33,417 nt of DNA, taken from NCBI GenBank assembly GCA_009377585.1, contig WHTS01000033.1:1-33417 (forward strand). The letters run 5' to 3'. Below are positions 10,703 through 21,113 of this stretch, in pieces. Under the pieces are notes generated by a model. The model was not told the DNA's origin. It was given only the letters and a program-made list of their open reading frames with translations, and did not search any database. Each line of letters begins with the position of its first letter. Within the stretch, counting starts at the first letter, position 1. Source of the stretch: Betaproteobacteria bacterium. GTDB lineage: Bacteria > Pseudomonadota > Gammaproteobacteria > Burkholderiales > WYBJ01. The translations under genes and the position numbers were made by a program.

Positions 10703-11488
10703 ATGAAGACCCAGACCAACGGCATCGAAACGCATTACACCATCGACGGCGACGGCCCCTGGCTGGTGTTCAGCCATTCGCTCGCGTGCAACGTTGCCAT
10801 GTGGGCGCCGCAGGTGGCGGAGTTCTCCAAGCGCTACAAGGTGCTGTGCTACGACACGCGCGGGCACGGGCAAAGCAGCGCCCCGGGCGGGGCTTACACG
10901 CTGGACCAGCTGGCCGACGACGCCAAGGCGCTGCTCGATGCGCTCGGCATCCGCAGCTGCCATTGGGTGGGCCTGTCGATGGGCGGGATGATCGGCCAGA
11001 CCTTCGCCCTGAAATATCCCGGCATCTTCAAGACCATGACCCTGGCCGACACGACCAGCAGCTATCCGCCAGATGCGGCGCCGACGTGGCAGGCACGGAT
11101 CAAGACCGCCAGCGAAAACGGGATGGAACCGATCACCCAGCCCACGCTCGAGCGCTGGTTCACCGAGCCGTTCCGCAAGAGCGGGCCGAAGATCGTGTCC
11201 GACATCGCGCAAGCGATCCGCGCCACGCCGGTCGCGGGATTCGTCGGCTGCTGTCACGCCATTCCGCAAATCAATCTCACCTCGCGCCTGCGCGAGATCA
11301 AGTCGCCCACGCTGGTGATCGTCGGTGACCAGGATCCCGGCACGCCGCCCGCGATGGCGCGCGAGATCCACGACAACCTGCCCGGCTCGGAGCTGGCCGT
11401 GATTCCATCGGCGGCGCATCTTTCCAATCTGGAGCAGCCGCAGGCGTTCAATTCGGCCTTGGCGACATTCCTGCAGCGCAACGCCTAG
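10703..11488 (+). CDS. Alpha/beta hydrolase, 3-oxoadipate enol-lactonase-like
   Basis: This is a 261-residue single-domain alpha/beta hydrolase. The nucleophile elbow is GLSMGG (Ser92), the acid is Asp211 in VGDQDPGTPP, and the histidine is His239 in AAHLSNLEQP, giving a complete triad. The oxyanion-hole region is FSHSLACN, and YDTRGHGQSS follows, all typical of PcaD-type enol-lactone hydrolases from aromatic degradation. No other beta-ketoadipate genes are present, so the true substrate may be another lactone or ester. A very strong ribosome site (AAGGAGG, 6 bases before ATG) suggests high expression. A 7+7 inverted repeat lies just upstream. The stop codon abuts the alpha-family repeat region. 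Confidence 0.88.
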   Translation: MKTQTNGIETHYTIDGDGPWLVFSHSLACNVAMWAPQVAEFSKRYKVLCYDTRGHGQSSAPGGAYTLDQLADDAKALLDALGIRSCHWVGLSMGGMIGQTFALKYPGIFKTMTLADTTSSYPPDAAPTWQARIKTASENGMEPITQPTLERWFTEPFRKSGPKIVSDIAQAIRATPVAGFVGCCHAIPQINLTSRLREIKSPTLVIVGDQDPGTPPAMAREIHDNLPGSELAVIPSAAHLSNLEQPQAFNSALATFLQRNA

Positions 11489-11690
11489 CTAGCGAGCTTC
11501 CGATAAGTGCTTTACAGCTCGCTCCCTCACCCACAACCCCTCCCTTGCAGGGCGCGCATCGGCATGCAGGCCGATGCCGTTCGGCCGGCACGGACCATGG
11601 TCCGTGAATTCCCGGCCTCACCCCGAAGGGAGAGGGGAGCGCATTGCGGAAAGCGGCTTGCCAGCCACTTTCCGGATTCTCAATAAGGCG
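11489..11690 (+). repeat. Alpha-family repeat, uninterrupted copy
   Basis: This gap holds the full alpha element. It begins with CTAGCGAGCTT (as at 1-11). Then come a stem GCATCGGC/GCCGATGC (11556-11563 and 11570-11577), the 12-bp palindrome GGACCATGGTCC (11592-11603), and a tail (11646-11690) shared with 54-98. The 5' half also matches 20266-20321 and 20434-20459, where the palindrome is interrupted by 112 bp. The element ends one base before the dehydrogenase ATG. Confidence 0.85.
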
Positions 11691-11691
11691 C

Positions 11692-12693
11692 ATGGCGACC
11701 AGGGGGCGCAAGACGGCCGGCGCGCGGGCGCGCAAGGCGGCCGTGGCGCGCAGCCGCAGCGAAGCGCCGGTCGGCATCGTCGGGCTCGGCATCATGGGCG
11801 GCGGCATGGCGCAGGCGCTGCTCGGCGCCGGTCGCGCAGTGGTGGGTTACGACCCGGATCGCGCCGCGCGGACCCGCTTGCAACGAGCCGGTGGCCGGGC
11901 GCTGGCGACCGCCACTGCGGTCGCGCAGCAAGCCGACGTGGTCATCACTTCGCTCGCGACGGTGGCCGCGCTCGACGATGTGGTGGCAAAGCTCGCCGCC
12001 GCACGCCGCCCGTCGGGGCGCGCGCCGCTCGTCGTCGTCGAATCGAGCACGCTGCCGCTTGCCGACAAGGACCGCGCCCACGATCGGCTCGCGCGCGCCG
12101 GCGCGATCGCCATGGATTGCCCGATCAGCGGCACTGCGGTGCGCTTGCAGGAGCGCGCCTGGACGATCTACGCGAGCGGCCCCAGGAGCGCGTACCGGCG
12201 GGTGCGGCCGATTTTCTCAGTATTCACCGACAACGCGCCCTACGTCGGCCGCTTCGGCCACGGCACGCGCATGAAGTTCGTTGCCAATCACCTGGTCGCG
12301 ATCCTCAACGTTGCGACGGCCGAATCGCTCACCTATGCACGCCGGCTCGGGCTCGATCCAGAGCTCGTGCACAAGCTGGTGGCGACGAGCCCGATCATCG
12401 GCACCGGCGTCTACCGCCTGCGCGGGCGTTTCATGGTGGACCGGAGTTATCGGCCGGCAACGATGAAGGTCGAAGTGTGGCAGAAGGACATGCAGGTGAT
12501 CGGCGACATGGCGCGCGCGGTGGGCGCGCCGGTGCCGCTTTTCAGCAACTGTGCGGCGCTCTATAACGCGGCGATGGCGCTGGGCCTCGCGCAATCCGAT
12601 TCGGCATCGGTGTGCGAGGTGTTCGATGCGATGACGGGAGGCGGCACGCGAGGTTGGCGCATCAGGGGAAGGTCGAAGTCGATGCGAGGTTGA
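11692..12693 (+). CDS. NAD-binding 3-hydroxyisobutyrate-dehydrogenase-like protein
   Basis: This is a member of the beta-hydroxyacid dehydrogenase family (HIBADH, tartronate semialdehyde reductase, GarR type). The Rossmann motif is VGIVGLGIMGGGMA at 27-40. DCPISGT at 142-148 corresponds to the substrate-binding loop, and the catalytic lysine is Lys195 in GTRMKFVANH. The ATG at 11692 adds a basic, low-complexity tail (about 23 residues rich in Arg, Lys and Ala) ahead of the Rossmann fold. A GTG at 11743 with AAGG upstream would remove most of it. The last 15-17 residues (after EVFDAMTGG) are also Arg-rich and unlike the family. The stop codon falls at the edge of a 21-bp repeat array, so the original C-terminus may have been replaced by repeat invasion. 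The 2-hydroxy-acid substrate is unknown. Confidence 0.85.
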   Translation: MATRGRKTAGARARKAAVARSRSEAPVGIVGLGIMGGGMAQALLGAGRAVVGYDPDRAARTRLQRAGGRALATATAVAQQADVVITSLATVAALDDVVAKLAAARRPSGRAPLVVVESSTLPLADKDRAHDRLARAGAIAMDCPISGTAVRLQERAWTIYASGPRSAYRRVRPIFSVFTDNAPYVGRFGHGTRMKFVANHLVAILNVATAESLTYARRLGLDPELVHKLVATSPIIGTGVYRLRGRFMVDRSYRPATMKVEVWQKDMQVIGDMARAVGAPVPLFSNCAALYNAAMALGLAQSDSASVCEVFDAMTGGGTRGWRIRGRSKSMRG

Positions 12694-12858
12694 CCTTGAG
12701 TTTTCGGCGGACTACCTTGGGCTTTCGACGGACTACCTTGGGCTTTCGGCGGACTACCTTGGGCTTTCGGCGGACTACCTTGGGCTTTCGGCGGACTACC
12801 TTGGGCTTTCGGCGGACTACCTTGGGCTTTCGGCGGACTACCTTGGGCTTTCGGCGGA
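12692..12858. repeat. 21-bp tandem repeat array
   Basis: Seven full 21-bp units (12709-12855) contain ACTACCTTGGGCTTTCGG, with one base change in the first, and are preceded by a degenerate partial unit. Because 21 is a multiple of three and no unit contains a stop, several frames remain open on both strands and produce long low-complexity translations. None has a start region or composition that suggests a real protein. The array begins at the stop codon of the preceding dehydrogenase. Confidence 0.95.
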
Positions 12859-13184
12859 CCACCCCGTCCGCGACACTGTCGCGTCCCGCCCCTCCTCGTC
12901 GAGGAGGGGAATGCTTTATTCTCCCCGCCTCTCACGAGGCGGGGTGGCGCGAAGCGCCGGGGTGGTGTGGTTTCCCCTCTTCTCACGAGGCGGGGTGTCA
13001 CGAAGTGACGGGGTGGTGTGGCTTCCCCTCCTCTCTCACGAGGCGGGGTGGCGCGAAGCGCCAGGGTGGTGTCTTTCCCCTCCTCTCACGAGGAGGGGTG
13101 TCACGAAGTGACGGGGTGGTGTCTTTCCCCTCCTCTCACGAGGAGGGGTGTCACGAAGTGACGGGGTGGTGTGGTTTTCCTCGC
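12859..13184. repeat. Gamma-family array of about 50-bp double-hairpin units
   Basis: There are five direct units, starting near 12922, 12973, 13024, 13077 and 13127, plus one inverted unit (12859-12911). Each has hairpin 1, CCCC(T/G)CCT with AGG(A/C)GGGG around a CTCACG loop, and hairpin 2, GTCAC-GAA-GTGAC or GGCGC-GAA-GCGCC, then GGGGTGGTGT. The inverted unit has CCCCTCCTCG/CGAGGAGGGG and CGCGACA/TGTCGCG in the same order when read from the other strand. Arms change in matched pairs between units. The array fills the gap between the convergent dehydrogenase and cupin genes. Confidence 0.93.
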
Positions 13185-13185
13185 G

Positions 13186-13743
13186 TCATGCCACCTGGGT
13201 ATCGACCACCAGATTGCCCTTGTGGTCGCGCGCGAGCCCGGTCCCTTGCGCTTCCTGCAGCACCCCGGGATACCACTGCACCTTGCCACAATCCGGACCG
13301 CCGATCAGCGTGAGCAGCGTTCCTTTGCCCTCGCCCACGTAGCGAAAGCCGCGATACACCCCGACCGGCACGTGCACGGTGTCGAACGGCTGCAGCACGA
13401 TTTCGCGCTCGCCTTCGTCGGTCATGAAGGTCACCACCCACGGCCCGATCAGCGGCATGAAGACTTCCTCGGTGGTATGCGCGTGCAGCTTGGTGCCGTT
13501 GCCCGGCTCGCACTGGATCATGCCGAGATTGAAGCCGTGCGCGGGCAGCGGAATGTTCGGCCGCAAATCCGGCAAATCCGTACGCTCGACCACACCGTTG
13601 CCAATGATGTTGATCTTGTTGCGGCGCGAGCCCGGCAAGCGGCTGTCGACGAACGCCTCCTCGGAGCCTTTCAGATCGCGAAAGCGGGCGATGTACTGAT
13701 TCATCTCCCCGATGCTGATGTTGCGCGTTTCGATATCCGCCAT
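13186..13743 (-). CDS. Cupin-domain protein
   Basis: This is a single-domain cupin of 185 residues. Cupin motif 1 is seen as GTKLHAHTTEEVFMPLIG, with probable metal ligands His87, His89 and Glu93. The fourth ligand, His124, is in DTVHVPVGVYRGF. The motifs identify a metal-binding beta-barrel but not the reaction; relatives include dioxygenases, isomerases and sugar-binding proteins. The start ATG at 13743 is preceded by GGAGG at 6 bases; the open frame extends upstream into a 17-bp repeat array and is not favoured. It is divergently arranged with the deacetylase-like gene at 13926, sharing a short repeat-containing control region. The 3' end abuts the gamma array. Confidence 0.88.
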   Translation of the reverse strand: MADIETRNISIGEMNQYIARFRDLKGSEEAFVDSRLPGSRRNKINIIGNGVVERTDLPDLRPNIPLPAHGFNLGMIQCEPGNGTKLHAHTTEEVFMPLIGPWVVTFMTDEGEREIVLQPFDTVHVPVGVYRGFRYVGEGKGTLLTLIGGPDCGKVQWYPGVLQEAQGTGLARDHKGNLVVDTQVA

Positions 13744-13791
13744 GGCGCACCTCCGGGCACGAAAACACCGATGCTCGTTCGGCCCGGGCCG

Positions 13792-13871
13792 CTTGTCAAC
13801 GCGTGCCACTTGTGAACGCGTGCCGCTTGTGAACGCGTGCCACTTGTGAAGGCGTGCCGCTTGTCAACGCG
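13792..13871. repeat. 17-bp tandem repeat between divergent genes
   Basis: About 4.7 copies of a 17-bp unit, CTTGTGAACGCGTGCCR, lie between the divergent cupin (start 13743) and deacetylase-like (start 13926) genes. Units alternate at the last base (A, G, A, G) and a few carry GTCAAC in place of GTGAAC. The period is not a multiple of three, so it is not coding. The position in a shared promoter region would allow it to act as an array of binding sites. Confidence 0.92.
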
Positions 13872-13925
13872 GCCAAGCGATCTTGCGGTAGACTTGTCCG
13901 GCGAGAATCGACGGGAGGAGAGAAC

Positions 13926-14855
13926 ATGCCGGGACAAAATCTGCACGCCCTGCCGGCAATCGCGCCGACAGAGGAAACGGCCCTGCGCCCGACCGAGCGC
14001 TTCGACTATTCGGCCATCGTCGATCGGCCGAAGCTGAAGCTGCCGCGCGGCGCGCGCATGATCGTATGGCCGGTGCTCAACATCGAGGAATGGAGCATCG
14101 AGCGGCCGGTGCCGCGCGGGCTGTCGGTGCCGCCGGGCGGGCAAGCCGTGATTCCCGACATCCAGAACTGGGGCTGGCACGAGTACGGCATGCGGGTAGG
14201 CATCTGGCGACTGATCGAGTCGTTGCGCCGTCATCGCATCAAGCCCACGGTGTCGATCAACGCCAAGGTGTGCGAAACGCGCCCGCGCATTGCCGCCGCG
14301 CTGCGCGACGAAGGCTACGAATTCATGGCGCATACCTACGAACAGATCCCGATCCACAAGATCGAAGACCAGCCCGCCATGATCCGCCACACCAAGGAGG
14401 TGCTCACGCGCTTCCTGGGCAAGCCGCCGAGCGGCTGGCTCGGTCCCGGCCGCGGCCAGACCTGGGCCACGCTCGATCACGTCGCCGCCGCCGGCTTCAG
14501 CTGGTTCGGCGACTGGGTGATGGACGATCAGCCGTTCTGGGCGCGGACCGCATCCGGTCCGATTCTCTCGGTGCCCTATTCGGCCGAGCTGAACGACATC
14601 ACCATCATGATCACCGGGCTGCACGAGTCCGATGCGATGCTGAAGCGCGTCAAGGACGCGTTCAACGCCCTGTACAAGGAATCGGCCAAGAGCACGCGCA
14701 TCCTCGCCTTCGGCGTGCATCCGTATGTCTCGGGCGCGGCGCACCGCATCAAGTATTTCGACGCCATGCTCGCGTCCTTGCGCAAGCACAAGGACGTGCT
14801 GTTCTGGAACGGCGGCCAGATCCACGAGTGGTTCGCGGCGCAGGTTCAGGCGTGA
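13926..14855 (+). CDS. Polysaccharide-deacetylase-like (PuuE/allantoinase type) hydrolase
   Basis: This 309-residue protein of the NodB-homology superfamily resembles the cytosolic allantoinase/amidase branch (HEYGMRVG at 85-92, TVSINAKVCE, EFMAHTYEQ, GWLGPGRGQTWAT, DWVMDDQP). There is no signal peptide, so action on cell-surface polysaccharide is unlikely. Enzymes of this branch hydrolyse cyclic ureides or amides using a metal held by Asp and His residues. The start ATG at 13926 is preceded by GGAGGAG. The stop codon TGA forms the first bases of the beta-family repeat that follows. Together with the cupin, the ABC importer and the SDR it may form a small-molecule uptake and degradation cluster; the substrate is unknown. 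Confidence 0.87.
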   Translation: MPGQNLHALPAIAPTEETALRPTERFDYSAIVDRPKLKLPRGARMIVWPVLNIEEWSIERPVPRGLSVPPGGQAVIPDIQNWGWHEYGMRVGIWRLIESLRRHRIKPTVSINAKVCETRPRIAAALRDEGYEFMAHTYEQIPIHKIEDQPAMIRHTKEVLTRFLGKPPSGWLGPGRGQTWATLDHVAAAGFSWFGDWVMDDQPFWARTASGPILSVPYSAELNDITIMITGLHESDAMLKRVKDAFNALYKESAKSTRILAFGVHPYVSGAAHRIKYFDAMLASLRKHKDVLFWNGGQIHEWFAAQVQA

Positions 14856-15041
14856 GCTTACCGGGCGAGGGGCGGTCGTCGTTCGCTTACCGGGCGAGGG
14901 GCGGCGACATGAGCTTCCCGGGCGAGGGGCCCCACGCAGTGGGGATCGACCGCAAAGCGAATCGCCGCCTGGGCGCTAGAGCCTCGGCGGTTCATTCGCA
15001 TCGACCGTTCGGAGGCGCCGGCGTGACGCGGCAGACGCGCA
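14853..15041 (+). repeat. Beta-family composite repeat, copy 1
   Basis: Three units of 28-29 bp starting with GCTTACCGGGCGAGGGG (14856, 14885, and 14913 with one change) are followed by the hairpin CCCCAC-GCA-GTGGGG (14930-14944) and GATCGACCGCAAAGCGA. A tail ends in GTTCGGAGGCG. The same order of parts recurs at 19163-19495, and in reverse at 20322-20433. It fills the gap between the deacetylase-like gene and the ABC permease gene. Confidence 0.9.
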
Positions 15042-15044
15042 CGC

Positions 15045-16769
15045 ATGGCTGACGGCACGGTGCGCCTGCCGTCCGCGCCTGCGCGGGCGCGGACGTTCGC
15101 CGGATTGCGCACGCTCAAGTCGCCGCAAGGATGGCTGCCGGCGCTCGCCGTCGCGATCGGCGTTGTCCTGATCGCGAGCCCGTTTCTCGCCACCGTGGTG
15201 CGCAGCCTCCTCGTCGGCGAGGATGGCAGCCTTGCGGCGGGGCTGGGCAACTTCATCGGCATGTTCGGCAACAAGCGCTTCTGGGAAGCGCTTGGCATGA
15301 CGGCGATCATGGGAACCGGGGCGACGCTGCTCGCCTGCCTGTTCGGCCTCGGGCTCGCCTGGATCGTCGCCCGCACCGATCTGCCCGGGCGCAACTGGTT
15401 CGATACGCTCAACCTGATTCCGTTCTTCCTGTCGCCGTTCGTCGGTGCGGTCAGCTGGACCTATCTCGCGGCGCCGAACGTGGGATTGCTCAACCAGTTG
15501 CTGGCGGCATTGGGCTTGCCTGCCGACATGCTCAACATCTATTCGGTCGGCGGCGTAATCTGGGTGCTGGCGCTTTTCTATACGCCCTACGTCTATCTTT
15601 TCATCATCAGCCCCATGCGGCGCATGGACCCGGCGCTGGAGGATGCGGCGCGGGCGCACGGCGCAGGCTTCTGGTTGACGCTGCGCCACGTCACCGCGCC
15701 GCTCATGATGCCGGCATTGCTCTCGGGGGCGCTGGTGGTGTTCGTCACCAGCGCGGGCCTGTTCGACGTGCCGCTCGCCCTCGCCTCGCCGCACGGTATT
15801 CGCACCATTCCGACCACGGTGTTTCAGTTGGTGCAATACCCGTCGGACTACGGGCTCGCCTCGGCCATTGGCGTGATGGTGATGGCGGTCACGGTACTGA
15901 TCACGCTGATGCAGCGCAACTACCTCTCGCGGCGCAGCTTCGCGACGGTGACGGGCAAGGGATACCGGCCGCGCACCGTTCAGCTCGGCCGCTGGAAGAT
16001 GGCCGCGCTCGCGCTGGAGCTCGTCTATATCGGCGGTGGCGTCGTGGCGCCGATGGCGGCGCTCGTCATGGTGGCGCTGTCGCCGCTATGGACGGGGAAA
16101 CCCGAGCCAGCGAGCTTTACGCTCGCCAATTTCGAGTTCGTGCTGTTCAATCACGACATGGCCCGGCGCGCCATGATGAACAGCCTCATCGTCGCCACGC
16201 TCGGTGCGACGGTAGGCGTGCTCGTCGGTACACTGCAGTCGTATTATTTGCAACGCGGCCGCAGCCGCCTGCGCACGATCATGGACGCATTCCTGTCGCT
16301 GCCGATCGGCATCCCGGGCATCATCCTGGGGCTCGGCTTCCTGATCCTTGCGCTGCGCACGCCGCTCTACAGCACCTTATGGATCATACTCATCGCCTAC
16401 ATCGCCCGCTTCCTGCCGTTCGCGACTCGCGGCATCTCGGCCATGCTGGTCTCGCTCAGCACCGACCTGGAGGAGAGCGCGCGCGCCGGCGGCGCCACCT
16501 GGCTGCAGACGATGCGCATGATCGTGCTTCCGCTCATCTGGCCGGCGATCCTGGCGGCGTGGCTCATGCTCTTCGTCATCTTCATCCGCGAGCTGGGAGC
16601 GACGATTCTGCTCTACGCCCAGGGCACCGAGACCATCAGTGTGGCCATGGTGATCATGGGCGAGATGAATTTCGGCTACGTCGCAGCGCTCGCGGTCATC
16701 CAGGCGCTGCTGCTGTTCGTTGCCTTCGTGCTGTTCCGCCTCACCCGCAGCTCCCTGCTGGAAAACTAG
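15045..16769 (+). CDS. ABC transporter permease, fused double-domain (FbpB/AfuB-like)
   Basis: This 574-residue inner-membrane protein has two MetI-type permease domains in tandem. Each carries the EAA loop that contacts the ATPase: EDAARAHGAGFWLTLRHVTA near 199-218 and EESARAGGATWLQTMRMIVL near 476-495. About twelve membrane helices are visible. This fused arrangement is typical of iron(III), thiamine or phosphonate importers of the FbpB group. It is the first gene of an operon with the ATPase (7-base gap) and the solute-binding protein (52-base gap). The start has no strong Shine-Dalgarno; the repeat-derived GGAGG lies about 23 bases upstream, too far to serve. Substrate remains open. Confidence 0.93.
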   Translation: MADGTVRLPSAPARARTFAGLRTLKSPQGWLPALAVAIGVVLIASPFLATVVRSLLVGEDGSLAAGLGNFIGMFGNKRFWEALGMTAIMGTGATLLACLFGLGLAWIVARTDLPGRNWFDTLNLIPFFLSPFVGAVSWTYLAAPNVGLLNQLLAALGLPADMLNIYSVGGVIWVLALFYTPYVYLFIISPMRRMDPALEDAARAHGAGFWLTLRHVTAPLMMPALLSGALVVFVTSAGLFDVPLALASPHGIRTIPTTVFQLVQYPSDYGLASAIGVMVMAVTVLITLMQRNYLSRRSFATVTGKGYRPRTVQLGRWKMAALALELVYIGGGVVAPMAALVMVALSPLWTGKPEPASFTLANFEFVLFNHDMARRAMMNSLIVATLGATVGVLVGTLQSYYLQRGRSRLRTIMDAFLSLPIGIPGIILGLGFLILALRTPLYSTLWIILIAYIARFLPFATRGISAMLVSLSTDLEESARAGGATWLQTMRMIVLPLIWPAILAAWLMLFVIFIRELGATILLYAQGTETISVAMVIMGEMNFGYVAALAVIQALLLFVAFVLFRLTRSSLLEN

Positions 16770-16776
16770 CCGCGCC

Positions 16777-17958
16777 ATGAACCAGATCGCAGAGCCACTT
16801 TCAGAACCACTTTCCACCCCGCCGCTCACCGCCGTGCAGCAGCACTTCGTTCGCGTCGAAGCCTTGCGCAAGTCCTTCGGCGCCATGGAAGCGCTCAAGG
16901 GCGTCGGGTTCGACGTCGAACAGGGGAGCACCGTGTCGTTGCTGGGACCGAGCGGCTGCGGCAAGACCACGGTGCTGCGCTCGATCGCCGGGCTCGAAAC
17001 GCCGGATGCCGGCCGCATCCGCATCGGCGAAGAGATCGTCTACGACAGCGATCAGGGGCTGAACCGCCCGCCCGAGCGGCGCCAGATCGGGATGGTGTTC
17101 CAGTCGTACGCCGTCTGGCCACACATGAGCGTGGCGCAAAACGTCGGCTTCCCGCTCAAGATTCGGCGCGTGGCCGCGGCCGAGGTTGCCGAGCGGGTCG
17201 GCAAGGCGCTCGACCTGGTGGGGTTGCACGGCCTGGGCGAGCGGCCCGCGACCAACCTGAGCGGCGGCCAGCAGCAGCGCGTGGCGCTCGCCCGCGCGAT
17301 CGTGCACGAACCGCGGCTGGTGCTGTTCGACGAGCCGCTGTCGAATCTCGACGCGCGCCTGCGCCACCAGATGCGCACGGAGCTGAAGCTGCTGCAGGAC
17401 AGGCTCGGCTTCACTGCGATCTACGTCACCCACGATCAGGAAGAGGCGCTGGCGCTTTCCACCAAGGTGATCGTGATGAACCACGGCGTGGTGGAAGCGA
17501 TGGCGGCGCCGCGCGAGCTGTTCGCGCAGCCCGCGACGCCGTTCGTCGCCCACTTCCTGGGCTTCGACAACATCCTGGATGGCAGCGTCGAAGCGGCAGC
17601 GCCACGAGGCGCGGACGGCGCCATGAGCGTCGAGGTCGCGCTCGCCAACGGCTGCCGGCTGCGCTGCCCCTGGCGCCGCGCCGAGGCCGCCGCGGCCGGG
17701 ATGCCTGTCAGCGTCGCGTTCCGCAGCGAGCGCGTCGCGATCGCGCCCGCGCAAGCCGCGACGTTGCCGGAGAATACGTTTCGCGGCACGGTCGCCGCCA
17801 GCGTCTATCTCGGCCTCAACGTCGATTATCTGGTCGAGGCGGGCAATCTCACGCTGCGCGTGCTCGCGCCCGGCGAGTTCCCGATCGCAACCGGCGTCGA
17901 GGTGGCAGTCAACGTGCGCGCGCAAGACTGTATCGTCTATCCGCGCGCTAGAGCGTGA
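16777..17958 (+). CDS. ABC transporter ATP-binding protein (FbpC/PotA-like)
   Basis: This is the cytoplasmic ATPase that powers the adjacent permease. Walker A is GPSGCGKT (57-64), the Q-loop Gln109 is in MVFQSYAVWP, the signature is LSGGQQQR (161-168), Walker B is LVLFDE (181-186) and the switch histidine is His219 in VTHDQ. A C-terminal extension from about residue 245 has the beta-strand pattern of a TOBE domain, as in importers of the iron/polyamine/maltose group. At 393 residues the length is normal. Its ATG lies 7 bases after the permease stop, so translation is probably coupled. Confidence 0.95.
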   Translation: MNQIAEPLSEPLSTPPLTAVQQHFVRVEALRKSFGAMEALKGVGFDVEQGSTVSLLGPSGCGKTTVLRSIAGLETPDAGRIRIGEEIVYDSDQGLNRPPERRQIGMVFQSYAVWPHMSVAQNVGFPLKIRRVAAAEVAERVGKALDLVGLHGLGERPATNLSGGQQQRVALARAIVHEPRLVLFDEPLSNLDARLRHQMRTELKLLQDRLGFTAIYVTHDQEEALALSTKVIVMNHGVVEAMAAPRELFAQPATPFVAHFLGFDNILDGSVEAAAPRGADGAMSVEVALANGCRLRCPWRRAEAAAAGMPVSVAFRSERVAIAPAQAATLPENTFRGTVAASVYLGLNVDYLVEAGNLTLRVLAPGEFPIATGVEVAVNVRAQDCIVYPRARA

Positions 17959-18010
17959 TTCATCGACCGCAAACGTTTCAGCACACACGTTCATGACGAG
18001 GAGAAAGAGC

Positions 18011-19111
18011 ATGTCGAAATTGGCCGCAATCCTGGGGCTCGCCGCAACCCTTGTGCTTACGTCGGCGCCGCTGGCGACCTACGGCGCCGACGACCCGCCA
18101 GCCGTGAAGGCGGCGGCGGCCGGCGCTCAGGACGCGTTGCGCAAGACGATCGCGCAAGCGGCTAAGGAAGGCGAGATCAGCTACTGGGACGCCGTCATAC
18201 AGCCGTCGACCAACAACGCGCTGGCCGAGGGCTTCCGCAAATACTACGGCCTGCCGTCGAGCTTCAAGGTGAATTACAGCCTGTCGGCGACCGGCGCGCT
18301 GGTGACACGGGTCGACCAGGAATTCGGCGCCGGGCGCGTGACCATCGACGTGGTCGGCATCGCGTCTCTGCCCTGGGTGCACGAAAAGGTGCGCGCCGGT
18401 CACGTGATGAAGTACGACTCGCCCCAGTACCCGGCATACAAGGCGGCGATGGAAAAAGGCCTCGGGCTCGACGGCTACTTCGCCTTCAACGGCGCGTACC
18501 TGTTCGTGCCGATGTGGAGCAGCGACAAGCTCGACTTCAAGAGCAGCTCGTACAAGGACGTGCTGGGCGCCGTGCAACCGGGCCGGCTGACGATCGGCGA
18601 TGCCAGCAAGTCGGTGACGTATCTGGCCACCTACATGGCGCATCGCGACGTGCTGGGAATCGACTTCTTCAAGGAGCTCGCCGCGATGAAGCCGGTGCTC
18701 GCGCTGCGCTCCGAGCTGATCGCCAGCCAGCTCGTGACCGGCCAGTACCAGCTCACCTGGTCCGGCATGCCGACCCGCGCCTATCAGTTCAACCAGAAAG
18801 GCGGCAAGCTCAAGTTCATCCTGCCGAAGGAAGGTGTGGTGCTGCTGCCGCAGGCGCAGTTCATCACCGCCAAGGCGCCGCATCCGAACGCAGCCAAGCT
18901 CTGGCTGGACTTCGTGCTTTCGGAGGAGGGCCAGAAGATCGTCGTCAACGGCGAGGCGCTCATCTCCGGGCGCAGCGGCTTCAAGAGCCCGCTGCCCGAA
19001 TACGCGCCGCCGATCGACAGCCTGAACGTCATCAAAATGGACTGGGCCAAGATTTCGACTGCGGACATGAGCAAGGCGCGGGCCGAATGGGTCGGCATGT
19101 TCAACCCATGA
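18011..19111 (+). CDS. Periplasmic solute-binding protein of the ABC importer
   Basis: This 366-residue protein has a clear signal peptide (MSKLAAILGLAATLVLTS, with cleavage near YGA at 25-26) and the two-lobe fold of the iron/molybdate-type group (ISYWDAV, FGAGRVTIDVVG, WSGMPTRAYQFNQKGGKL, then a C-terminal SEEGQKIVVNGEA). It would bind the substrate in the periplasm and hand it to the fused permease. I do not see the adjacent tyrosine pair in the C-lobe that binds iron in FbpA; the YY near residue 78 is in a different place. An organic substrate is therefore plausible. GAGGAG lies about 9 bases before the ATG. It is the last gene of the three, which is less usual than first. Confidence 0.9.
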   Translation: MSKLAAILGLAATLVLTSAPLATYGADDPPAVKAAAAGAQDALRKTIAQAAKEGEISYWDAVIQPSTNNALAEGFRKYYGLPSSFKVNYSLSATGALVTRVDQEFGAGRVTIDVVGIASLPWVHEKVRAGHVMKYDSPQYPAYKAAMEKGLGLDGYFAFNGAYLFVPMWSSDKLDFKSSSYKDVLGAVQPGRLTIGDASKSVTYLATYMAHRDVLGIDFFKELAAMKPVLALRSELIASQLVTGQYQLTWSGMPTRAYQFNQKGGKLKFILPKEGVVLLPQAQFITAKAPHPNAAKLWLDFVLSEEGQKIVVNGEALISGRSGFKSPLPEYAPPIDSLNVIKMDWAKISTADMSKARAEWVGMFNP

Positions 19112-19162
19112 GCGCGAAACGGCCCCAACGCGCTTCCTGGTCCCAACCGGAAGCGGCGCCAT

Positions 19163-19495
19163 GAGCTTACCGGGCGAGGGGGGTCGTTGCGAGCTTACCG
19201 GGCGAGGGGGGTCGTTGCGAGCTTACCGGGCGAGGGGCCCCGCTTGCGGGGATCGACCGCAAAGCGAGCAACGCCGGCCACCGACGGCTTGGCGGTTCAT
19301 CTGCCGCTACGGTTCGGAGGTCGCCCCGCTTGCGGGGATCGACCGCAAAGCGAGCAACGCCGGCCACCGACGGCTTGGCGGTTCATCTGCCGCTACGGTT
19401 CGGAGGTTGCCCCGCGCAGTGGGGATCGACCGCAAAGCGAAGGGCGCTAAGCCGCTAGAGGCTTGGCGATGGATCTGCCTGGACGGGTCGGAGGC
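19163..19495 (+). repeat. Beta-family composite repeat, copy 2, with 86-bp tandem part
   Basis: Two exact 28-bp units (19163-19190 and 19191-19218) and a truncated third start with GAGCTTACCGGGCGAGGGG. They are followed by three 86-bp units (19238, 19324, 19410), each opening with a hairpin: CCCCGC-TT-GCGGGG twice, then CCCCGC-GCA-GTGGGG. GATCGACCGCAAAGCGA follows each. The last unit ends in GGTCGGAGGC just before the SDR start at 19499. This accounts for nearly all of the 387-bp gap. Confidence 0.93.
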
Positions 19496-19498
19496 GGC

Positions 19499-20254
19499 AT
19501 GAGCACCGCAAGCCGGACGGCGCTGGTGACCGGCGCTGCGCAAGGTCTGGGGTCTGCGATCGCGCTGCGCCTGGCGCGCGAAGGCTACGATGTCGCCGTG
19601 TCCGATCCGACTGCGGAAAAGCTGCTGACCACCGTGCACGCCATCGAGGCGCTCGGCCGGCGCGCGCACACGGTCGAGCTCGAACTGCGCGACCAGGCGA
19701 GCATCGAGCGCGCGTTCGCCCAAGTCGTGCAGGCGTTCGGCACGCTGGACGTGCTGGTGAACAACGCCGGAATCACGCTACGCCGCAGCGCCCTGGAGGT
19801 CTCGCGCGAGGAATGGAACGACGTGATCGCCGTCATGCTGAGCGGCACGTTCTTCATGAGCCAGCAGATGGGCCGGTACCTGGTCGCGGCCGGACGACCC
19901 GGCGCGATCGTGAGCCTCGCATCCACCCACGGGCTGGTCGGGCTCGCCGAGCGCTCGACCTACGGCATCGCCAAGGGCGGCATCATCCAGATGACCCGCA
20001 TGCTCGCGATCGAATGGGCTGCACACGGCATTCGGGTGAACGCGATTGCGCCCGGAACGGTGGAGACGCCTTCGCGCAAGGCACACTTCGATGCCGACCC
20101 GGCGGCGCGCCCACGCATGCTGGCGCGCATTCCGAGCGGCCGCTTCGGCCTGCCGGAAGAGGTGGCCGCGGCGGTCGCGTACCTGGCGAGCCCCGATGCG
20201 GCGTACGTGACCGGGCAGACGCTGGTGATCGATGGCGGGTTGACTGCGGCCTGA
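19499..20254 (+). CDS. Short-chain dehydrogenase/reductase (3-oxoacyl-ACP-reductase-like)
   Basis: This is a classical SDR of 251 residues. The cofactor motif TGAAQGLG is at 11-18, NNAG at 88-91, catalytic Ser142 in SLASTHG, and Tyr155/Lys159 in STYGIAKGG, so the active site is complete. The C-terminal PDAAYVTGQTLVIDGG is typical. Substrate could be a sugar, hydroxy acid or acyl thioester; cofactor preference is not certain. The start ATG at 19499 has GGAGG 5 bases upstream, and that sequence is the end of the preceding beta repeat. Physically it follows the ABC importer operon after 387 bp of repeats. Confidence 0.92.
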   Translation: MSTASRTALVTGAAQGLGSAIALRLAREGYDVAVSDPTAEKLLTTVHAIEALGRRAHTVELELRDQASIERAFAQVVQAFGTLDVLVNNAGITLRRSALEVSREEWNDVIAVMLSGTFFMSQQMGRYLVAAGRPGAIVSLASTHGLVGLAERSTYGIAKGGIIQMTRMLAIEWAAHGIRVNAIAPGTVETPSRKAHFDADPAARPRMLARIPSGRFGLPEEVAAAVAYLASPDAAYVTGQTLVIDGGLTAA

Positions 20255-20321
20255 CGGTGTCTCCCTCACTTGCAGTGCGCGCATCGGCATGCAGGCCGAT
20301 GCCGTTCGGTCGGCGCGGACC
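20255..20321 (+). repeat. Alpha-family repeat, left half of interrupted copy
   Basis: TTGCAG followed by GCGCGCATCGGCATGCAGG and the stem GCATCGGC/GCCGATGC (20281-20288 and 20295-20302) matches 11544-11596 closely. It ends in CGGACC at 20321, where the 11592 copy continues into ATGGTCC. Confidence 0.85.
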
Positions 20322-20433
20322 GCCTCGACCAGCTTGGCGAAGGCTCAACGATCGGTGCTCCGGCGGTTGGCGTCGACTCGCTTTGCGGTCGATCCCCACA
20401 AGTGGGGCCCCTCGCCCGGTAAGCTCGCGCCGC
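20322..20433 (-). repeat. Beta-family element in reverse orientation, interrupting an alpha repeat
   Basis: Read on the minus strand this block begins GCGAGCTTACCGGGCGAGG and continues with the hairpin CCCCAC-TT-GTGGGG (20394-20407) and GATCGACCGCAAAGCGAG. It is the same sequence as in copy 2 at 19217-19268. After about 60 bp it diverges. It lies exactly between GGACC and ATGGTCC, two parts that are contiguous in the alpha copy at 11592-11603. Confidence 0.85.
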
Positions 20434-20580
20434 TATGGTCCGCGAATTCCCGCCCTCACCCCTCACCCCCCAGCCCCTCTCCCGGAGGGAGAGGGGAGCG
20501 TGTCTTACCTCTCGCCTGGCAGAAGGAAGTTTGTCTTCCCTCTCCCTCCGGGAGAGGGACCGAGGGTGAGGGTGAGCAAT
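20434..20580 (+). repeat. Alpha-family right half and CCCTCTCC inverted repeats
   Basis: ATGGTCCGCGAATTCCCG resumes the alpha repeat. Beyond it lie two palindromes of a type common in proteobacterial gaps: CCCCTCTCCCGGAGGGAGAGG, ending near 20495, and CCCTCTCCCTCCGGGAGAGGG near 20538-20560, followed by a GAGGGTGAGGGTGAG run. No gene is visible before the metallophosphoesterase at 20652. Confidence 0.8.
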
Positions 20581-20651
20581 CGACCATGCATGCCTCGCGC
20601 GCGGGGCGCGGCGCTTGCTGACGAAACGGCACTGCTACAACTCTTCGTGCG

Positions 20652-21113
20652 ATGCGTATAGGCCTCATCTCGGACACGCACAACCTCTTGCGCGAAGAAG
20701 CGCGTCATGCGCTCGCCGGCGTCGATCGGATACTGCACGCCGGCGACATCTGTACACGCGTCGTTCTCGACCAGCTCGAGGCCATCGCGCCGTTGAGCGC
20801 GGTTCGAGGCAATAACGACCACGGCCCGTGGGCGGACGCGCTGTCGGAGACCGCGGTCGTGCCGGTGGCAGGCGTGCGGATCCTGATCGTGCACGACCTC
20901 GCGACGCTCGCGATCGATCCGCAAGCCGAGGGGTTCGACGTGGTCGTCAGCGGGCATTCGCATCGGCCGCGCGTGGAACAGCGCGGGGCAGTGCTCTACG
21001 TGAATCCCGGTAGCGCCGGCCCGCGCCGCTTCCGCTTGCCCGTCTCGGTGGGCTTTCTGGATATCGGTGCAGGCCGCATCGACGCGCAGCTCGAGGAGCT
21101 GCGCGTGGCCTGA
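20652..21113 (+). CDS. Metallophosphoesterase, YfcE/MJ0936-like
   Basis: This is a compact 153-residue calcineurin-type phosphodiesterase. All metal-binding motifs are present: ISDTHN (Asp8, His10), HAGD (Asp32), GNND (near 53-56), VHD, and GHSHRP near the end. NPGSAGPRR is typical of the YfcE/YfcJ group, which hydrolyses small phosphodiesters or phosphomonoesters. The family has broad substrate range in vitro and the natural substrate is often unknown. The ribosome site is weak and the upstream 400 bases are repeats, so transcription might start within the repeat region. It converges on the arginase-like gene with an 11-base gap. Confidence 0.92.
   Translation: MRIGLISDTHNLLREEARHALAGVDRILHAGDICTRVVLDQLEAIAPLSAVRGNNDHGPWADALSETAVVPVAGVRILIVHDLATLAIDPQAEGFDVVVSGHSHRPRVEQRGAVLYVNPGSAGPRRFRLPVSVGFLDIGAGRIDAQLEELRVA

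Follow-up and report, generated by a model that had tools for sequence, protein, structure and literature searches.

Small mobile repeats such as ERIC, NEMIS/Correia and RUP, which behave like miniature inverted-repeat transposable elements (MITEs), lie near genes, duplicate a TA and carry terminal inverted repeats. Among the better described hairpin systems, the insertion sequence IS608 chooses its target by base pairing (PMC5934647). For REP elements, insertions within palindromes are described in three species; in two of these cases no empty target palindromes were found, and in the third there were hundreds (PMC3733652). Here we describe a short non-coding hairpin element, beta, from a window (the whole stretch of DNA that was analysed, contig C33, positions 1-33417) of a draft genome of 6.76 Mb in 242 contigs. 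One copy in the window interrupts a second repeat, alpha, at the apex of a palindrome, and from this arrangement a model-made reading of the bare sequence (the first-pass annotation) had proposed, as the simplest reading, that a short non-coding element moved into another repeat. The larger finding is a junction element with an arm that matches its flank, and it reaches beyond the insertion in alpha. We consider, with a probability of roughly 0.7, that beta is a non-autonomous mobile hairpin that inserts at an NNN-TGA site with duplication of the target, has one arm written from the flank, and gave rise to a special lineage that entered the alpha apex.

Beta is ca. 103-110 bp long and has as its core a 17-pair hairpin. 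In 18 diverse copies, 96.4% of 302 pair cells of the core were paired, against 87.6% in shuffled and 24-39% in slid controls, and double-sided changes numbered 33 against 11.9. Four of the five covariation measures were clear; the fifth (further pair types) had no excess in the core. Outside alpha the element mostly starts with xTGAGC and ends with GGAGG ahead of a start codon. We rejected beta as a protein-coding gene, the loop and arm lengths varying by non-multiples of three and the array periods of 86 and 28 nt shifting the frame. A covariance model of the core, with 12 candidates scored per genome, found beta in 52 of 399 genomes of the order, from 27 of 159 genera, at E<=0.001 (40 of the 399 at E<=1e-5), and in a class-wide sample of 369 genomes only its own genome matched at E<=1e-5. 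A DNA pattern recovered seven stretches from a named collection, all titled Burkholderiales, Betaproteobacteria or beta proteobacterium. Rfam covariance models, followed up to E = 1, overlapped neither alpha nor beta in window positions 11000-21000, nor beta in nine loci; a further hairpin repeat, gamma, gave matches to microRNA models of Rfam, all under their cut-offs.

The usual seat of beta is the junction between two genes. This, the weightier point, was missed by the first-pass annotation. We examined 101 beta clusters drawn from the best-scoring loci; the own genome contributes six loci, and arrays with partial left units, the two of the window included, were excluded. In 62 clusters nucleotides 2-4 of beta are the TGA that closes an upstream frame of at least 60 codons, in 19 another stop of such a frame lies within -30 to +4, seven have the TGA but a shorter open frame; the remaining 13 show none of these. 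Put differently, 62 of the 74 clusters with TGA at this position close a frame of at least 60 codons, compared with 22% (834/3722) of the control TGA triplets in the same loci away from the units and 24% (52/218) of the control xTGAGC motifs. The downstream start, where found, commonly lies 107-119 nt beyond the point where the last unit begins and is preceded by a GGAGG-like stretch. At six loci (L152, L159, L180, L210, L239 and L248) beta lies a few bases past the stop and not on it; in L152 the gene before beta has a match, under the curated cut-off, to NADH-quinone oxidoreductase subunit A, and those of the other loci have a similar end.

Relatives that lack beta at a given junction mostly have genes overlapping by four bases (xTGA). 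One junction of a genus was searched, with the hairpin omitted, in 11 genomes, of which 10 matched. Its genes are ftsW and murG, both above their curated cut-offs. The site is empty in two genomes (G104, G180), where the two genes, each a long frame, overlap by four bases; it is filled by one unit in three (G271, G061, G143) and by two units plus a 17-nt remnant in G014; in G241 and G329 a 24-nt beta remnant is fused in frame to murG, and in G300 and G356 the site is split across contigs. In the two fused cases (L189, L190) the first 24 nt of beta have become a new MurG N-terminus, MSHPARGP, so that the remnant is now coding. Within the own genus, four genomes were searched with six of nine junctions. 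Through L049, L050 and L053 G001 is contiguous at 82-84% identity; it lacks the array found there in the own genome and has a four-base overlap flanked by long frames. G002 and G003 also run through without an array, mostly with small gaps, and the xTGA overlaps that were checked join long frames. No contiguous empty site was found for the L044 junction within the genus genomes searched; the L188 junction is filled in G003, and has in the own genome a short beta-like start plus a non-beta hairpin. At these junctions empty and filled genomes have similar codons ahead of the stop, and we therefore take the left flank to be host sequence.

The last codon before the stop tends to recur immediately ahead of the downstream start. 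For this comparison 46 of the 101 clusters were hand-picked (TGA at nucleotides 2-4 plus a downstream xTGA start), a choice that left out L204, L040, L212, L225 and L248 despite a start, and five that repeat a gene pair were removed, leaving 41 junctions. At positions -2, -1 and 0 the bases were identical in 35, 34 and 31 of the 41, against 17.4, 18.8 and 21.0 with shuffled partners. The agreement is weaker from -3 to -7 (P 0.003 to 0.1), and there was no signal from -8 to -12 (at -13, P 0.03). These direct repeats, strong at 6 bp and weaker beyond, fit a duplication of roughly 6 to 10 bp that has eroded with age; terminal inverted repeats of beta were not seen by eye.

A second kind of match lies inside the element. 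The core is followed by some 7 nt that are complementary, in reverse, to the host flank preceding the element, so that the hairpin stem extends into the upstream gene. Examples are GCCAGCATGAGC with GTGCTGGC, GACAACGTGAGC with CGTTGTC, GAGGCTATGAGC with ATAGCCTC, and GTCATGG with CCATGAC. Scored as the best of eight registers, with one mismatch and G-T allowed and with a looser anchor that kept 98 of the 101 clusters (85 distinct flanks), the pairing of arm and flank extends over 6 bp or more in 75 of the 85, against a mean of 19.2 and a maximum of 31 in 300 shuffles; the mean length is 7.2 against 4.2 shuffled. In a fixed register from -1 to -7, 332 of the 497 cells in 71 flanks were paired (shuffled mean 240, maximum 269), and when partners were exchanged within genomes only, the observed score of 293 compared with at most 241 in 2000 permutations (40 elements, seven genomes). 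The predicted fold in G014 has nine outer stem pairs that include the A and T of ATGA and the seven ftsW bases before them (z -2.96), and that of L207 has seven pairs, six of them ahead of GTGA (z -1.78).

Such an arm could be a guide, with beta picking its targets by 7-nt pairing before the stop codon as IS608 or the bridge RNA of IS110 do, and there are cases where arms and sites are shared: the own-genome loci L054 and L057 both carry TGCCGCC as their arm, next to GGYGGYATGAGC flanks, L049 and L050 look alike by eye in their outer flanks and main units, several copies in G156, G341 and G118 combine TAGCGGC-like flanks with CGCCGCT-like arms, and the sites TAGCGGC and GGTGGC recur. We find this unlikely, however, given that in G312, G367 and G395 seven copies with distinct flanks have seven different arms, mostly fitting their own flank, on nearly identical cores. 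Distinct arms likewise number five of six in G156 and four of five in G143, counts made after copies with an identical 8-nt flank had been collapsed, which favours diversity. A mutating guide should also leave many mismatches, yet most flanks fit over 6 bp or more (the 75 of 85 above). Alternatively, the extended stem may be functional, for instance in control of the downstream gene, and fitting arms may have been selected after insertion. In the 36 single units, to which the comparison with the right copy is confined, 27 arms are a better fit to the left flank than to the right repeat, four a worse one and five an equal one, which speaks for selection, and in the elements between ftsW and murG the eye can make out exchanges of A-T against C-G between flank and arm. 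This explanation nevertheless requires up to seven matching changes per site in elements whose cores hardly differ, and we regard it as improbable.

The alpha repeat, which holds a beta insert in some copies, is ca. 80 bp long and made of three hairpins. In 80 copies (63 distinct) 1945 of 2000 pair cells were paired, and the distinct rows hold 54 compensatory cells against a shuffled mean of 19.4 and a maximum of 30, most of them from three pairs; in the apex stem GGACC/GGTCC becomes GAACC/GGTTC in some copies. The first-pass annotation had contrasted an unbroken alpha palindrome with a split one, and both are there (Table 1): GGACCATGGTCC stands uninterrupted at 11592-11603, and the left parts of the two alphas of the window are 93% identical across 59 nt. 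In the split copy the halves are 20317-20321 and 20435-20441, and the interruption is real; its length is 113 bp (20322-20434) and not the 112 bp given before, the right end having been drawn one T short. The insert had further been related to beta elements in tandem at 19163-19268. Comparison confirmed that tandem, and a 52-nt part of the insert is 96% identical to the opposite strand of 19217-19268.

Table 1. Beta, alpha and gamma features of the window (contig C33, positions 1-33417).
Feature	Start	End	Strand	Remarks
Alpha repeat, empty copy	11542	11621	+	three hairpins; palindrome GGACCATGGTCC at 11592-11603
Beta array	14852	15022	+	first TGA (14853-14855) is the stop of the 333-aa open reading frame (ORF) 13854-14855
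Beta array	19161	19498	+	between ORF 17993-19111 and the short-chain-dehydrogenase ORF
Alpha repeat, filled copy, left half	20267	20321	+	
Beta insert	20322	20434	-	113 bp, splits the alpha palindrome at its apex; minus-strand core hairpin at 20360-20428
Alpha repeat, filled copy, right half	20435	20459	+	
Gamma hairpin repeat	20451	20500	+	right side of the filled alpha; overlaps the alpha right half by a few bases

The whole genome was then searched for alpha halves with up to three mismatches, using the reversed pattern as control. Left halves numbered 84 against 0 in the control, right halves 87 against 3 (8 of the 87 have no left partner), and exact GCGGACCATGGTCCGC 52 against 0. From left to right half the gap is 0 in 69 of the 84 left halves, 1 in a single case, and 113, 114 or 228 in nine (114 bp in seven, 113 bp in one, 228 bp in one); the remaining five have no right half within three mismatches, and in each it is present at gap 0 with four mismatches. 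From these gaps, and from reading 80 of the 84 copies in sequence, it follows that the alpha site has two states, with 75 copies empty (a gap of 0 in 74 and of 1 in one) and nine filled, and the ends of the insert are fixed. No insert other than beta was seen at this point among the 80 left halves read. As the first-pass annotation said, no target duplication is visible at the filled alpha. Its view that a short non-coding element moved into alpha is mostly right: there is one fixed point, a filled minority, fixed ends, and halves that match empty copies. Each filled copy may record a separate insertion, but the nine inserts share derived features, and a single special beta lineage, or gene conversion between alphas, is just as likely.

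Those features are a final T, GCGAGC in place of xTGAGC, and a distinctive arm of some 31-40 nt that is found only within alpha. They would be expected if beta had entered alpha once and the filled state had spread by gene conversion or with alpha itself, as would the near identity of the last 70 nt, which differ by 0-2 among seven of the nine inserts (an indel or a second unit sets the remaining two apart). We give this account close to an even chance. Against it, the 40-nt arm differs at 3 to 13 of 40 positions between inserts (in L031 an indel shifts it), and the empty alphas that the filled ones match are not the same. Every filled alpha has an empty counterpart within 0-3 differences; the filled alpha of L031 is identical to the empty L104. 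The alpha of the window's filled copy equals that of an empty copy on C29. Clustering of the filled alphas gave no significant signal against random sets, with a mean pairwise difference of their halves of 4.06 compared with 6.0 (P 0.13; P 0.33 when tested within contexts). In our reading a single beta lineage became adapted to alpha, or trapped there, and multiplied either by entering it repeatedly or through gene conversion. An insertion of the IS110 type at alpha was considered and rejected, no dinucleotide being repeated on both sides (by eye).

The reverse course, in which empty alphas would be deletion products of an ancestral composite of alpha and beta, could draw on the same derived features, by which the composite may have a single origin, and on the fact that beta can shrink to a remnant (G241, G329). 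It appears very improbable to us, because 75 of the 84 copies are precisely empty, several of them with compensatory changes in that very stem, and exact loss that many times would be costly. Moreover, in G001, of the same genus, no match covered the insert, and 8 of 13 loci have adjacent halves, the other five having no right half or another stretch. If instead a beta lineage entered alpha, as we prefer, then the filled palindrome is derived and the empty one ancestral.

Alpha is itself located within other hairpin repeats, gamma at two points and delta at one, according to a coarse text classification. Gamma and delta without alpha occur in similar surroundings (15 gamma-like, two of these beside alpha, and six delta edges), in a 433-kb sample that was partly picked for alpha and holds 16 alpha left halves. 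With alpha inside gamma and beta inside alpha, the arrangement of beta in alpha in gamma is thus a three-level nest. One alpha copy (L141, C5:107012-107038) has flanks that belong to no known repeat and are perhaps within, or next to, a coding region. An array of ca. 50-bp delta hairpin units occupies window positions 12920-13180, and delta hosts alpha elsewhere in the genome. In G395 five loci (L235, L237, L240, L250, L252) have betas at the same point of a gamma-like hairpin repeat, a second instance of beta inside a repeat.

As to what could move beta, the first-pass annotation had named a TnpA-REP transposase, a candidate that we rejected. The own genome has a single RAYT-like Y1 gene (L081, C27:50223-50549; REP_Tyr_transpos, under the curated cut-off), whose flanking inverted repeat is unlike alpha or beta, and no Y1 match was obtained in 12 of the 52 beta genomes (in 9 of 40 at E<=1e-5), which include G312, G367 and G143, beta-rich but incomplete drafts. 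Y1 matches occur more often in genomes with beta (40 of 52) than in the others (182 of 347; Fisher P 0.0009), as they do at the stricter E<=1e-5 (31 of 40 against 191 of 359, P 0.004), both figures being uncorrected for kinship. Among 22 aligned beta starts, 18 read xTGAG, three GCGAG and one TTCGC, and none has GTAG or CGTC at the stem foot.

The junction position, the empty sites, the direct repeats and the complementary arm, all of them observed, are best accounted for as follows. Beta would insert at an NNN-TGA site, duplicating about 6-10 bp, and fold-back synthesis on the hairpin would write or rewrite the arm from the host flank during or after the insertion. The element brings its own GGAGG and is seen mostly between the stop of one gene and the start of the next. 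A special lineage of 113/114 bp would have entered the apex of alpha, which had earlier entered gamma and delta. Several observations weigh against this scheme. In 39 of the 101 clusters beta does not begin at a stop that closes a frame of 60 codons or more, the direct repeat is strong only from -2 to 0, and the L054 junction in G002 is contiguous but has no overlap, the start coming one base after the stop. The rigid anchor of the fixed-register test lost 21 of the 101 clusters, the clusters are drawn from the best-scoring loci, and many surveyed genomes are drafts or metagenome bins. The match of arm and flank could be selected rather than copied, and we identified no mobilising enzyme for beta. 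The insert in alpha has neither a target duplication nor a TGA at its left end, and the alpha-borne copy does not have the canonical extended stem (fold z 0.23); the alpha insertion is a special case, without the junction hallmarks of beta.

The window holds two beta arrays at junctions. The one at 19161-19498 consists of three 28-bp left-arm copies followed by ca. 86-bp units, and the short-chain-dehydrogenase ORF after it starts with ATG at 19499, behind GGAGG; ORF 17993-19111, before it, has a weak likeness to an ABC transporter substrate-binding protein. The gene closed by the other array resembles allantoinases and polysaccharide deacetylases, under the curated cut-off. Two tandem repeats of other kinds were also noticed, one at 12693-12860 with a 21-bp unit, ACCTTGGGCTTTCGGCGGACT, and one at 13785-13869 with a 17-bp unit, CGTGCCACTTGTGAACG.

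Where genes overlap at ATGA, their translation is coupled, and an insertion can hardly take place there without damage. An element that enters such a site, leaves stop and start intact, contributes a ribosome-binding site and matches host codons with one arm would be a new route by which small non-coding DNA spreads through operons, of which ftsW-murG is an example, and with empty, single, double and remnant orthologous sites side by side in one genus the case is testable. A bolder claim would be that beta represents a new mobile class that enters where stop and start codons overlap and incorporates its target in inverted form, forming one hairpin with the host gene; we advance this tentatively and would sooner expect it to fail than to hold. 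If it were true, the host flank would be present three times (direct, inverted, direct), the inner copy would be able to pair with either outer one, and each insertion would be a ready-made switch between two cistrons.

Compared with known systems, beta is like ERIC, NEMIS/Correia and RUP in being small, near genes and probably associated with a target duplication; neither the TA duplication nor the terminal inverted repeats of MITEs were seen in it, and its repeat is longer and includes the stop codon. IS608 is not known to make direct repeats of its flank, and the flank of beta is repeated. With the IS200/IS605 family, e.g., IS608, beta has in common hairpin DNA and pairing between element and flank at the target (PMC5934647), but there is no transposase in beta and the pairing is of ca. 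7 bp instead of 4. IS110/IS1111 elements resemble it through programmable target pairing by bridge or seek RNA, and REP palindromes serve them as targets; beta, however, has no RNA-coding insertion sequence or transposase, and the alpha site has no dinucleotide core. In the open literature on stop/start elements, intercistronic repeats, MITE junctions and nested repeats, titles and the beginnings of abstracts contained nothing visibly on beta. The Burkholderiales-1 RNA motif, a candidate structured motif listed for Burkholderiales with no Rfam accession (Weinberg 2010, PMC2864571), may or may not be the same as beta. Beta also resembles the REP, BIME and REPIN repeats associated with RAYT transposases (GTAG and CGTC families), which are short non-coding hairpins in many copies, in some genomes inserted inside palindromes (PMC3733652). 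Unlike these, beta has no visible GTAG or CGTC tag, measures ca. 110 bp, sits on stop and start codons, and combines a flank repeat with a matching inner arm; and unlike two of the three REP palindrome cases in that account, the targets within alpha are here found empty in 75 copies.
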